From Umbilicaria muhlenbergii (Eukaryota > Ascomycota > Lecanoromycetes > Umbilicariales > Umbilicariaceae), in NCBI GenBank assembly GCA_000611775.1, contig KK106984.1:1146364-1210363 (forward strand): 64,000 nucleotides of DNA, in the 5' to 3' direction. Below are positions 48,071 to 64,000 of the stretch, piece after piece. Under the pieces are notes generated by a model that saw only the letters and a list, made by a program, of their open reading frames with translations, did not search any database and was not told the origin of the DNA. The position numbers and the translations under genes are program-made. Numbering within the stretch: the first letter of the stretch is position 1; the number at the start of each line of letters is the position of its first letter.

Positions 48071-48846
48071 CAAGAGACTACCCCAAATCAAGGCAACATA
48101 GCCTCGAAAATGCCACGACTTGATTAGACTCTCTTTCACGGAGTACAACGAGGATAACAAAGTAAGTATTCTATCATGTGCTATATCGTCTATGCGCCCT
48201 CGGAGAATGAAGACCGTTCCACCACGCCCCTTAACTCCTTCTTCCATGCAACGCTGGACGGCCTCAAAGCCTCAAAGCTCCACTGATCTCAATCTTTACT
48301 GCTCCGGTCTTTTCGTCCCTACCCGAGTATCGAACACCGCTTAGATCCTTCAATATCCAATCGGCTCCTGCCTCCTTCACCTGCTCGATAGAGTGGGTTG
48401 TCGTCAGTCCGACAACCTTGTATCCGGCTACCTTACCAGCTCGGATTCCAGCAGGTGCATCTTCTAGCACCAGCATTGCAGCCTCAGGATCCAACCCTAG
48501 GAGCTTCGTACCCAGTCTATAGCATGTCGGATCCGGCTTCCCAATTTCCACATCCTCCGCGGACACCAGTTTCTTGGGAAAGGGGAGTCCCATCACTCTG
48601 AACCAAGCTTCCACGAGGACCCGGGTACCCGATGTTACAATCGACCATGGCGCTTTTGCTTTCTCAAGGGACGAGAGCAGGTTCCTTGAACCAGGAAGTT
48701 CCACCGCATCTGCTGCGTACTTCTTAGGGATAATTTGCTCGACGTGGCTCACATCTAGCTTGATTCTTAACATCGATCAACAGTGTGGACATTTGACTTA
48801 TATACTCACAATCCCAATTAGCTTTGCTCTCATCGTATAGCTTTAT

Positions 48847-48956
48847 TGTTGAATTTATTCAACGGATTGACTAGAGTTCGATTGCTACGAAAAGTGGTGC
48901 GAATATATAGAGGGGGGATGCCAAGCCACTAAGCAGGCGACAGTGAAAACTCAACA
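48847..48956 (-). repeat. 3' LTR of the TRIM
   Basis: 110 bp, identical to the other LTR as read by eye. It begins TGTTGAAT and ends CTCAACA on the plus strand. Confidence 0.95.
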
Positions 48957-49036
48957 CTCCCCCTCACTGCGACTGCTCCCCCACGACCCTAAAACCACAA
49001 CCTCATTTTCTCACTCAAATCCCTATACTCTCAAAG

Positions 49037-49171
49037 GAATGGCCACCTCTGTGGGCTTCCGATAAGTGCCTTGTAGGCCCGTAATGCCTCTGCGTGGAGG
49101 GCTTCTGAAGTGGAATGGCCACCTTTGTGGGCTTCCGTGACTGAAACGCCACCTCTGTGGGCTGGCTTCCG
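49037..49171. repeat. Three internal repeats within the TRIM
   Basis: Copies at 49037-49061, 49113-49137 and 49143-49171 share GAA(T/A)(G/C)GCCACCT(C/T)TGTGGGCTTCCG. The third has a 4-bp insertion. Confidence 0.85.
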
Positions 49172-49257
49172 TTACTGCCTCCGTAGAGGGCTTGTTTGCA
49201 TAGTCTTTAACGTCCTCTCAGCATGGACGGAGTCAATCCGCAGCGCCTTTGCGCTGA

Positions 49258-49271
49258 CCGGGCTCATAACC
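49258..49271 (-). other. Primer binding site (half initiator tRNA-Met)
   Basis: GGTTATGAGCCC complements the GGGCUCAUAACC anticodon arm conserved in initiator tRNA-Met, and it directly abuts the 5' LTR. Confidence 0.8.
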
Positions 49272-49381
49272 TGTTGAATTTATTCAACGGATTGACTAGA
49301 GTTCGATTGCTACGAAAAGTGGTGCGAATATATAGAGGGGGGATGCCAAGCCACTAAGCAGGCGACAGTGAAAACTCAACA
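49272..49381 (-). repeat. 5' LTR of the TRIM
   Basis: 110 bp, identical to the 3' LTR, which implies recent insertion. It contains a TATATAGAG-like box on the plus strand. Confidence 0.95.
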
Positions 49382-49925
49382 TTTATGACGTCTATAGTCC
49401 TTCTTCCATGAGATGCTGCCAATATTACATTGGGGTCTACACCCAGTTCCTCGCCTACGCTGCAACAGGTGAGACTTGAGCCATGAGACCGCCCGAGATT
49501 TCGCACCGACCTGTACCAATGCTTTACAATAGCATTTGTAGAATCTATAACAGTCCCATCCATATCAAAAAGTAGCCCTGCAAAGTAGTGCGTTTCTGCA
49601 GGGCTGGTAAAAGTCGGCCCATCATCGATTGACGGCATATTCTTCAAGCGTCACACAATGAGACAACGATGAACAGACGGTCTATAAATACGGGAAGGTG
49701 ATACTCGAGCTGCGTCCTTTCAAAGATTTCAACACGAGATCTGACCGTCTAGATATAATATTTTTGATAGGCTTCGGCAGACTTGCCTCGGACAACGAAT
49801 TCCGGCTAAGTTCAACGGAGGCGGAAAAACGAATTACTGCGCAAAATCTTGGCACACAGCGACACGAGGTGCACGCAGTGGAAACTTTTTGAAGCTAGCA
49901 GTGTCTGGAGCATCTATCACCAGTA

Positions 49926-59189: not shown

Positions 59190-60637
59190 TTGATCCCAGT
59201 ATCAGGGTTATGAATATGGTCCTTGGTGTTTTAATTGCTGTGCGACACCCAATGGCAAGTCCAGAAAGAAGTCGGAGGAGTCGGTCAAGTTTCTATATCG
59301 CAGACGAGCCGCAAGCAAACGATTTTCCCTTGGGCGGCCAGGACGGCCTTCGGTTTTATCGGCGAATGCCAAGGAAGTGCTTATCTTAGCGTCCGTTCTC
59401 GCTCCGCAATCCAAAAGTTCATTCGCAATGGAAGGTTGACCAACAGCGCCGTCGGAAAATCACACATGCCCGCCTGCTCACATCGCCAGAGACTATATCT
59501 TGGGGCACTTTGGGCGGCGTGCAGCTGCAAGAAAAATCCGAGTAGGAAGTTCTGCTTCTAACTGGCCGAGCTTGTAATCCATGTAATCCATGCACGCAAT
59601 CCTGCTCCGTGCTTGCCAATTACTCTGTTGACCATGTTCACCCCAGTCTTCCCCACCTGGCTCTTCCCATGTTTTTCTTAAGGCCTCTGAAAGGACGTCA
59701 AATCTGCAGAATACGCTTTCAGTCTTTTCGAGTATTGTTCTCAGATGGCTATGCAGTTCTGAGACGCTTCTCACTGTTGAAATGATTTCGGTAAAGACAG
59801 ACTTATTGCTAAAACAAAGGAGAATTCGCCTAATTATGAGGCCATGGCTGAGGAGCCTGAACCCCGAAATCCACCCTGAAATCTAACCCCGAAATCACCC
59901 CGATAAGCGACTGCCGTAAGCCGGCAGCGCCTAAATTCAACACTCACGCCACTAAAAACAAACTGAAGCATCTGAGGTGTATATCAACGTCTATCAAGTA
60001 TTGCGGCTATTTGCTTTCTGGTACTTGCTCTTGGGGCTCATGGGACATTCTACCGACCAAGGTGGTCATTACCTTTCATGTTCATGACAGAGGACGAATA
60101 ACGTCTAGATTGGTTGACGAGTACATTCTACTGAGGCCAAGGCTAGTTATTATTATTGGTATGATGGCTCGCCTCGATCTCATGTGCATTCTAGCTTATA
60201 TCATGACCAGCGAAGTATTTGATATGCAGCCCCTCGCTCTGCAGCCCTGATGCAGAGCTAGCAGTTATTTGGTAGCATCGAGGATAGTAGGGCTTCCTCA
60301 AGCTCTTAAAGATTCAGGATCCTACAGTGTACCTGAGTGATCGATTGCTGTGAACACCTAAGGGATGGGCTCAATCCATTCGGGACTCATTGACATATCT
60401 TATACTGGCAAAGTAAATCTTTATGAAAACATAAGTGTCCTTGCTTCCTAGAGAAAATAATCTAGCAGTGAACGAAGGGTGACTGATCTGAACGCGGTTC
60501 TCCGACATCTTAGCTGGCTTGGCACTCTATGCCTAATTCGGATAGCGTGGTAATTATTGGCCGCACAAACTGACTGTCGCCGTTTACAAGGAACCTGATG
60601 AGTATACAGTTACTGTCCACTTGCTAGATCATTCAAT
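59190..60637. other. Divergent intergenic region between ARG1 and eIF3h
   Basis: About 1.45 kb. Holds an exon-like minus-strand frame (59493-59774) and short CCCCGAAATC-type repeats near 59861-59906. Otherwise A/T-richer and featureless; the right end is the eIF3h promoter. Confidence 0.5.
59493..59774 (-). other. Doubtful exon-like open frame
   Basis: A 93-codon frame with protein-like content (LRTILEKTESVFCRFDVLSE), preceded by a possible acceptor (TTTCAACAG). No family recognised, and neighbouring frames do not extend it into a gene. It could be a remnant exon or chance. Confidence 0.2.
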
Positions 60638-63223: not shown

Positions 63224-64000
63224 TGAGGATAATTCTGAGTGATCATGCCTCCTGAGAGGGTCAGCTGCTGCCTGCTTAATTTTCAGGAACCTTTACATTG
63301 CTCTTTCACAGTCATGTGCAGGTCATTATTAAGGTAGTCTGTAGTATCCTCACACAATCTGCTTCTCATTTTGTTACTGTTCACTCAGACCTGCATTTGA
63401 AGTGCTATGCTACTCAGCTGCAATGATCACTTTCAGCTTTAACATCACTGACCTCAGTTTGAAAGGTTTTTCATCACAGTCACAACTTTTCATGCTTCTT
63501 GTGTCATCATCCTTATCAGCAGCAAACTTCATCAAATGTTAACTCTGAAAATGACATCATGTCATGACAATTTTGAGCCTGATAGGGTCATGATATGACC
63601 TTGTTGAGGGTTAGAAATTGAGGAATTTTGAGGAGCCTTCAGTGAGAGAGAGTGTTGAATTTAACTGCTGTCAGCTCTCAGGCATCAGATTTCAGGGTGA
63701 GTTTCAGAGTTCAAGCCCCTCACTCATGACCTTATAATTAAGCATCTCTCACTTGTTTTTAGGAGTTAGTTGATTCATTGAATTAAATTCAACAAATATA
63801 TGATAGCAATACTATAGAAAGTAGAATCAGAACTATCAGCAGGCAGTGATGCTTTTGAGCATCTGAAATGTTGAATGCTCATCTTATAACTGTTCTGACA
63901 CTTCTGCAAGAAAGTGAAAACTTTTCTCAAGTCAGTGATAATACTGTCAGTAATGATTGATAACTCTGCTTCAGCAGATGTACTTAATAGCTAGTGTTAC
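63209..64000. other. CpG-free sequence to the window end
   Basis: No CG dinucleotide in 792 bp although C and G are both common; TG and CA are frequent. No open frame of note. It includes the LTR-like relic at 63653-63794 and probably belongs to a decayed transposable element. Confidence 0.8.
63641..63794 (+). mobile_element. Probable decayed LTR with polypurine tract
   Basis: 63653-63794 (142 bp) begins TGTTGAATTTAA and ends with its inverse, TTAAATTCAACA. Directly upstream is AGTGAGAGAGAG (63641-63652), like the polypurine tract of the TRIM (AGTGAGGGGGAG). The last 20 bp also resemble the TRIM LTR end, with CA where the TRIM has CG. No target duplication is visible, so it may be the 3' end of a truncated or larger element. 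Confidence 0.5.

Follow-up and report, generated by a model that had tools for sequence, protein, structure and literature searches.

A probably Copia-dependent TRIM element with an initiator tRNA-Met primer site, inserted in a HAD gene of Umbilicaria muhlenbergii

A 535-bp element with identical LTRs interrupts a HAD gene

We analysed a window of 64,000 nucleotides of Umbilicaria muhlenbergii DNA, and read in its sequence an element of 535 bp at 48847-49381, with the minus strand as its sense strand. Its two LTRs (the 5' LTR at 49272-49381 and the 3' LTR at 48847-48956, both on the minus strand) are 110 bp each, are 100% identical and run TGTTGA...TCAACA, that is, with TG...CA ends. The pentamer TTTAT (plus strand; ATAAA on the minus strand) flanks the element as its target site duplication, with the 5' side at 49382-49386 and the 3' side at 48842-48846. 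On the minus strand, GGTTATGAGCCCGG (49271 down to 49258) abuts the 5' LTR without a gap and forms the primer binding site, and the polypurine tract GAGGGGGAG (48965 down to 48957) lies immediately before the 3' LTR. The 5' LTR contains a TATA-box-like TATATAT (49328-49334, minus strand), a predicted Pol II promoter.

Feature mapping divided the internal domain (minus strand) into a 5' part of 105 bp, INT5, at 49167-49271, and a 3' part of 79 bp, INT3, at 48957-49035. Between them lies a 76-bp repeat unit (49061-49136), followed by 25 bp of a further unit (49036-49060). The longest open reading frame that is fully internal to the element has 55 aa, and those of 97 aa and 47 aa overlap its edge. 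The earlier note had described a 535-bp element with identical TG...CA LTRs, a TTTAT duplication, a primer site and a polypurine tract, and without coding capacity, and each of these features is seen in the sequence. When the RNA of the internal domain was folded and compared with shuffled sequences, no unusual stability was observed (z +1.34; 95 of 100 shuffles folded at least as well).

TRIM elements have a total length under about 1 kb and short LTRs. The element in the window is of this size, has the primer site and the polypurine tract between its LTRs, lacks coding capacity, and belongs to a set of dispersed copies with 5-bp duplications (see below). Its 5-bp duplication and the signals that it has in common with Copia elements of the same genome place it with Copia; the pol order integrase - reverse transcriptase is absent, the element being non-coding. 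It is thus filed as a dependent of Copia and not as a coding member.

The element lies inside a coding exon; neither this position nor the minus-strand sense is given in the earlier note. The first coding piece of the host gene (49387-49638, minus strand) contains LLFDMDGTVIDS, which we recognized by eye as HAD motif I, and a Pfam search with this piece returned nothing. The last coding piece (48267-48758, minus strand), after an inferred intron, matched HAD_2 (PF13419) with a Pfam E-value of 3.1e-12. When the flanks were rejoined with one copy of the duplication, a frame that includes the HAD motif DMDGT spanned the insertion site. With the element present, this frame stops within the LTR, and a genome search found no close second copy of the gene (best match 27%). 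From this, we predict that the insertion knocks out the HAD phosphatase gene, which lacks a close paralogue, provided that the element is not removed by splicing. Removal of the element as an intron, leaving a functional HAD gene, seems very unlikely to us: the element and the gene do run in the same direction and both coding pieces are stop-free, but reading on from the gene meets the stop within the LTR.

The element belongs to a dispersed family with a variable internal repeat

The assembly searched comprises 34.8 Mb in 7 contigs (C1, C3 and C4 below are contigs of this assembly). A search with the whole element gave at least 80 matching stretches (best 40 of 55 candidates scored), and a search with the 110-bp LTR, which had been suggested as the way to find other copies, gave at least 40 LTR matches (best 40 of 62 candidates scored). 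About 16 of the 40 listed LTR matches, as read from the tables, have no adjoining internal-domain match and are solo-LTR candidates. Feature mapping covered 26 loci and the window, and among these the same 110-bp LTR was present at both ends of 10 copies, all 10 with a perfect 5-bp target duplication. The 80 stretches, the 40 LTR matches and the ten duplications, as found among the listed matches, establish a family beyond chance.

The two-LTR copies measure 533 to 992 bp (n=10) and have a common internal layout: INT5 (105 bp), a 30-bp link, 76-bp repeat units, and INT3 (79 bp). The number of repeat units varies between copies, up to a maximum of 7 full units, and some copies have partial units only. 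To our knowledge, this variable-number 76-bp internal repeat is the present family's own in comparison with plant TRIMs.

The LTRs of the window copy and of the copy at C1:101231-101765 are identical both within and between the two copies, and over the whole element these copies differ by 4 transitions. The window insertion therefore looks recent. Summed over the 10 copies, the differences between the LTRs of a pair were 42 transitions and 3 transversions, an excess of the kind that RIP or another process turning cytosine into thymine would give. We rejected the classical CpA-type RIP, since the LTR-pair differences, though nearly all transitions, were not concentrated at CpA in the pairs examined. 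Between two Copia loci compared on the same strand (L029 and L035), we counted 38 transitions against 0 transversions, and CpA sites did not account for most of these changes.

We also observed one copy, L012 (C1:7833151-7833596), in which a TRIM LTR is inverted at one end and which is without the primer site. It has TTCTG on both sides, and is an aberrant but integrated product.

The primer site is the exact complement of nt 26-39 of the initiator tRNA-Met

The genome contains the primer 12-mer GGGCTCATAACC 61 times (including the tRNA gene itself) and the reversed control once. We read the primer site at 31 loci (30 loci and one short region). All 14 nt of GGTTATGAGCCCGG were present in 30 of the 31, where 12 of the 14 positions were fixed by the search and only the last two bases are independent; the sole deviant, L059, differs at position 13. 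The bases that precede the site form a CA end in 24 of these loci and a TA end in 7. The sequence after the site differs between families: TCAG follows the 14 nt in 10/10 TRIM-type rows and in 11/14 rows of the Copia families CopA and CopB, and is absent in the family CopC.

To find the host initiator tRNA, we used a pattern for its 3' half, and obtained one gene, on the minus strand of C4. The two sequences, as read, are complementary at 14/14 nt, the primer site pairing with nt 26-39 of the initiator tRNA-Met. These nucleotides comprise the anticodon loop together with the 5' strand of its stem, plus two further bases. The earlier proposal that the primer site pairs with the anticodon arm of this tRNA was thus borne out by alignment to the host gene. 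The primer of copia is a 39-nt half of the initiator tRNA-Met. The earlier note had also named copia and Ty5 as precedents, and priming from the tRNA anticodon loop is indeed stated for Drosophila copia and yeast Ty5 (PMC10886601).

Copia families of the genome carry the same signals

There are 55 matches to the RVT_2 profile in the genome. Comparison of 20 RVT_2 loci assigned 5 to CopA and 13 to CopB (18 of the 20 together), two related families that are 76-86% alike over the aligned part. Single LTR copies of CopA and CopB are 267 and 255 bp long. We observed that CopA, CopB and CopC all carry the TRIM's primer site and a polypurine end in GGGAG. These polypurine ends are GTGGGAG in CopA and AGAGGGAG in CopB, both before TGTTG, and AGTGGGAG in CopC, before TGTCA. 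Both of the CopB elements measured have 5-bp duplications.

All 18 of the CopA/CopB RVT_2 matches examined contain stop codons, and only 2 of the 55 matches in the genome are without a stop. CopC (L021, C3:352855) has a stop-free RVT_2 match in a 1505-aa frame, and CopB LTR sequence has taken the place of most of its 5' LTR. The CopC LTR starts differently from that of the TRIM but has the same end, TTCAACA. The other stop-free RVT_2 match, a piece of 100 positions, is at C1:4324691; the distance from it to a primer site of the CopA type (L046) is 3.3 kb.

The earlier note had suggested a search for an autonomous Copia element sharing the TRIM's LTR ends, primer site and polypurine tract. The Copia families do share the primer site, the polypurine end and the 5-bp duplications, but no Copia element with the TRIM's own 110-bp LTR was present among the matches listed. 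The link between the TRIM and Copia runs via the primer site, the polypurine end, the 5-bp duplications and the LTR hybrids described below, and a CopB-like Copia is favoured as the helper of the TRIM. That the helper is instead CopC, whose RVT_2 frame at C3:352855 is open, or else some Copia that was not found, is a tenable if somewhat doubtful alternative. The 14-nt primer site and the TTCAACA end that CopC has in common with the TRIM speak for it, and the stops in the CopA/CopB RVT_2 matches disfavour CopB. However, the TGTTGA start of the TRIM LTR and the hybrids point toward CopB, and CopC lacks the TCAG behind the primer site.

In addition, at C3:2079203-2079758 two CopB-type LTRs lie in inverted orientation, 34 bases apart, possibly an arrangement like that of the aberrant product L012.

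The TRIM internal domain occurs with other LTR types

Ordinary reverse transcription yields two like LTRs. At C3:2207253-2208123, we observed a CopB-type 5' LTR, the TRIM internal domain and a TRIM 3' LTR, with CCATA on both sides. The CopB-type LTR of this hybrid has 260 bp, and matches that of a second hybrid at 247/262 aligned positions. The second hybrid, at C1:2944374-2945942, has its parts arranged likewise, and is nested in another TRIM copy within a rearranged cluster with repeated pieces. It has CCTCT on both sides, and the last base of its LTR has apparently changed. Only the hybrid at C3:2207253-2208123 is clean. LTRs of the CopB subtype seen in the hybrids are dispersed in the genome (at least 45 matches; best 40 of 165 candidates scored), and among the matches listed there was no same-strand pair of such LTRs around a TRIM internal domain.

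Such a hybrid could form by intermolecular second-strand transfer at the common primer site, with both RNAs in one particle. Copia plus-strand strong-stop DNA, ending with the primer site, would transfer to the TRIM minus strand, and the product would have a CopB 5' LTR and a TRIM 3' LTR. From two different LTRs inside one target duplication we therefore infer that both RNAs were in one particle, and consider the hybrid at C3:2207253-2208123 good evidence, from one clean case, for co-packaging of Copia and TRIM RNAs. Alternatively, chromosomal copies already inserted might have recombined to give the hybrids, and the rearranged, nested cluster with repeated pieces around the second hybrid would agree with such an origin. 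We regard this as unlikely, as both ends of C3:2207253-2208123 bear CCATA, an agreement that an exchange between loci would not produce (about 1 in 1,000 by chance).

A third LTR type, T2, was found in three elements, at C1:6191656, C1:6666255 and C1:8517961. These are 1216-1420 bp long with LTRs of 165-177 bp, and each has a perfect 5-bp duplication. Inside they carry INT5 and repeat sequence, without a match to INT3. The 5' part of the TRIM internal domain is thus also found with two other LTR types, making three in all. The T2 element L055 (C1:8517961-8519176) has 706 bp of its own sequence, including CWHCKRSGHKEDRC, in which we recognized a CCHC zinc-knuckle pattern by eye, and a long simple repeat of the GGTCGTGGTCTT type. 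A piece of the T2 element at C1:6666255 is 80% similar to this own sequence. A Pfam search with the gag-like piece gave nothing up to an E-value of 1, and tblastn against the loci examined found it in T2 copies only, and in none of the CopA, CopB and CopC parts. Judged from these features, the T2 elements may keep a gag remnant, and may mark an intermediate stage on the way from a coding Copia to the TRIM. The window itself contains a T2 solo LTR at 59775-59942 (minus strand) and a partial T2 LTR at 63688-63770 (plus strand).

A proposed half-tRNA-primed cycle in Copia particles

The LTRs, the primer site and its tRNA complement, the polypurine tract, the duplications, the further copies and the Copia-LTR hybrids are all seen in the sequence. 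Taken with them, the window element is very probably a recently inserted, non-autonomous TRIM of the Copia type with a half-tRNA-primed cycle in Copia particles, where transcription, packaging, tRNA cleavage and the helper are the inferred parts. In the proposed cycle, Pol II would transcribe the TRIM from the LTR, and a Copia of this genome would supply the particles that package the RNA. The 39-nt 5' half of the initiator tRNA-Met, paired with the 14-nt primer site, would prime reverse transcription, the polypurine tract would be the start of plus-strand synthesis, and the Copia integrase would insert the TRIM copy, creating the 5-bp duplication. Counting against this cycle are the stops in the CopA/CopB RVT_2 matches, which leave a living CopB helper in doubt, though two TRIM copies have identical LTRs. 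Other points against it are that no Copia with the TRIM's 110-bp LTR was present among the matches listed, that a single hybrid is clean, and that the internal RNA folds no better than shuffled sequence.

The family offers a natural and compact illustration of how retroelements without genes may borrow Copia machinery: one internal domain occurs with three LTR types, a hybrid has two different LTRs inside one target duplication, and a host gene was apparently hit recently.

Relation to known elements

TRIMs have been described in fungi, ascomycetes included (PMC4112212, PMC5689174, PMC4646964, PMC6110257), and half-tRNA-iMet priming by fungal TRIMs is also in print (PMC10886601). Thus, of the interpretation given in the earlier note, the TRIM identity, the half-tRNA-iMet site and the Copia affinity stood up to genome-wide tests, but the element is of a kind already in print and not a new one. 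We consider the family new, as judged within this genome only, but its kind known; its points of interest are the hybrids between LTR types and the repeat of variable number. Among the papers listed in our literature search, none was plainly about the present TRIM family. The available part of PMC3562529 merely defines the term TRIM, and the main text of PMC3248453 contains neither 'tRNA' nor 'primer'.

A close comparison in priming is with Helenus. The primer mode is shared by the majority of Helenus families in fungi, and the Helenus elements of fungi have 5-bp duplications (PMC10886601). The LTRs of Helenus carry a tRNA-like Pol III promoter (PMC10886601), and we detected none in the present TRIM: an Rfam scan of the window element gave nothing at E-values up to 10, and the best joint score of an A-box and a B-box in the LTR was equalled by 188 of 300 resampled sequences. 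Moreover, the TATATAT stretch fits Pol II. The two are therefore alike in priming, but the defining feature of Helenus is missing here, and fungal Helenus is reported from Pucciniales and some Agaricomycetes (PMC10886601). That the window element is a Helenus-type TRIM, transcribed from a tRNA-like Pol III promoter in its LTR, is in our view extremely improbable, and we retain the Copia-type TRIM.

The TRIMs of Cochliobolus heterostrophus are likewise non-autonomous elements of an ascomycete, and seven of them are related to Copia and tied to a Copia family (PMC4112212). In the available part of that paper they are counted only, and neither a primer site nor a hybrid is described. Plant TRIMs resemble the present TRIM in size class, layout and insertion in genes (PMC4717578; Katydid-At1, PMC4646964), but are from another kingdom. 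Drosophila copia and yeast Ty5 share with it the anticodon-loop priming and the Copia superfamily (PMC10886601). Unlike the TRIM, copia and Ty5 code for their own proteins.

The initiator tRNA-Met gene is split by two intron-like sequences

The only initiator tRNA-Met gene that we found in the assembly (L073, C4:1007223-1007401, minus strand) has its D-arm split by two GT-AG intron-like sequences of 55 and 52 nt. The 55-nt insert (GTAAGT...CCAG) lies after nt 11 and the 52-nt insert (GTGAGT...CTAAC...CAG) after nt 22. The joined exons were called by ARAGORN as a 72-nt tRNA-Met and fold into a cloverleaf, and a T run lies downstream of the gene. On genomic sequence, ARAGORN found no tRNA in the window, the 30 primer-site loci or the initiator tRNA locus. 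The 13-mer GGGCTCATAACCC, which is part of the initiator tRNA and absent from the primer sites, occurs once in the genome, in the C4 gene. Patterns for a contiguous initiator tRNA found no copy in the genome, and this fits a split gene.

Introns in the D-arm of tRNAs are known from a red alga (PMC9602550), and the available parts of a review and a tool paper (PMC4090602, PMC8450103) give unusual tRNA introns or permuted tRNA genes for archaea and algae only. None of the papers listed in our literature search dealt with nuclear tRNA genes that carry spliceosomal introns. On balance, we think it probable, though with considerable reserve, that the initiator tRNA priming the TRIM and at least three Copia families comes from a gene, the only one found for it in the assembly, with two spliceosome-type introns. 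If the spliceosome removes these, translation start and retroelement priming would both depend on spliceosomal tRNA splicing, a dependence described in none of the papers that our searches listed. The split tRNA genes may surprise more than the TRIM itself.

A pattern for further split tRNA genes gave 1 match, the known case, against 3 in the reversed control, and so no sign of more. An Rfam tRNA search listed 19 matches (best 63 of 1258 candidates scored), and 2 further genes among these have a GT-AG intron-like sequence in the D-arm, after nt 24. The first (L090, C3 about 3883134-3883258, plus strand) is a tRNA-Phe gene with a 50-nt intron-like sequence. Against a split Phe gene, an alternative ARAGORN call at this locus is tRNA-Met with an intron of the ordinary type, and the joined Phe sequence has no minimum-energy cloverleaf, though ARAGORN accepts it as tRNA-Phe. 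The second (L092, C4:2856416-2856550, plus strand), a tRNA of uncertain identity, has a 52-nt intron-like sequence, and was called by ARAGORN as Gln on genomic DNA and as Ala or Asp once joined.
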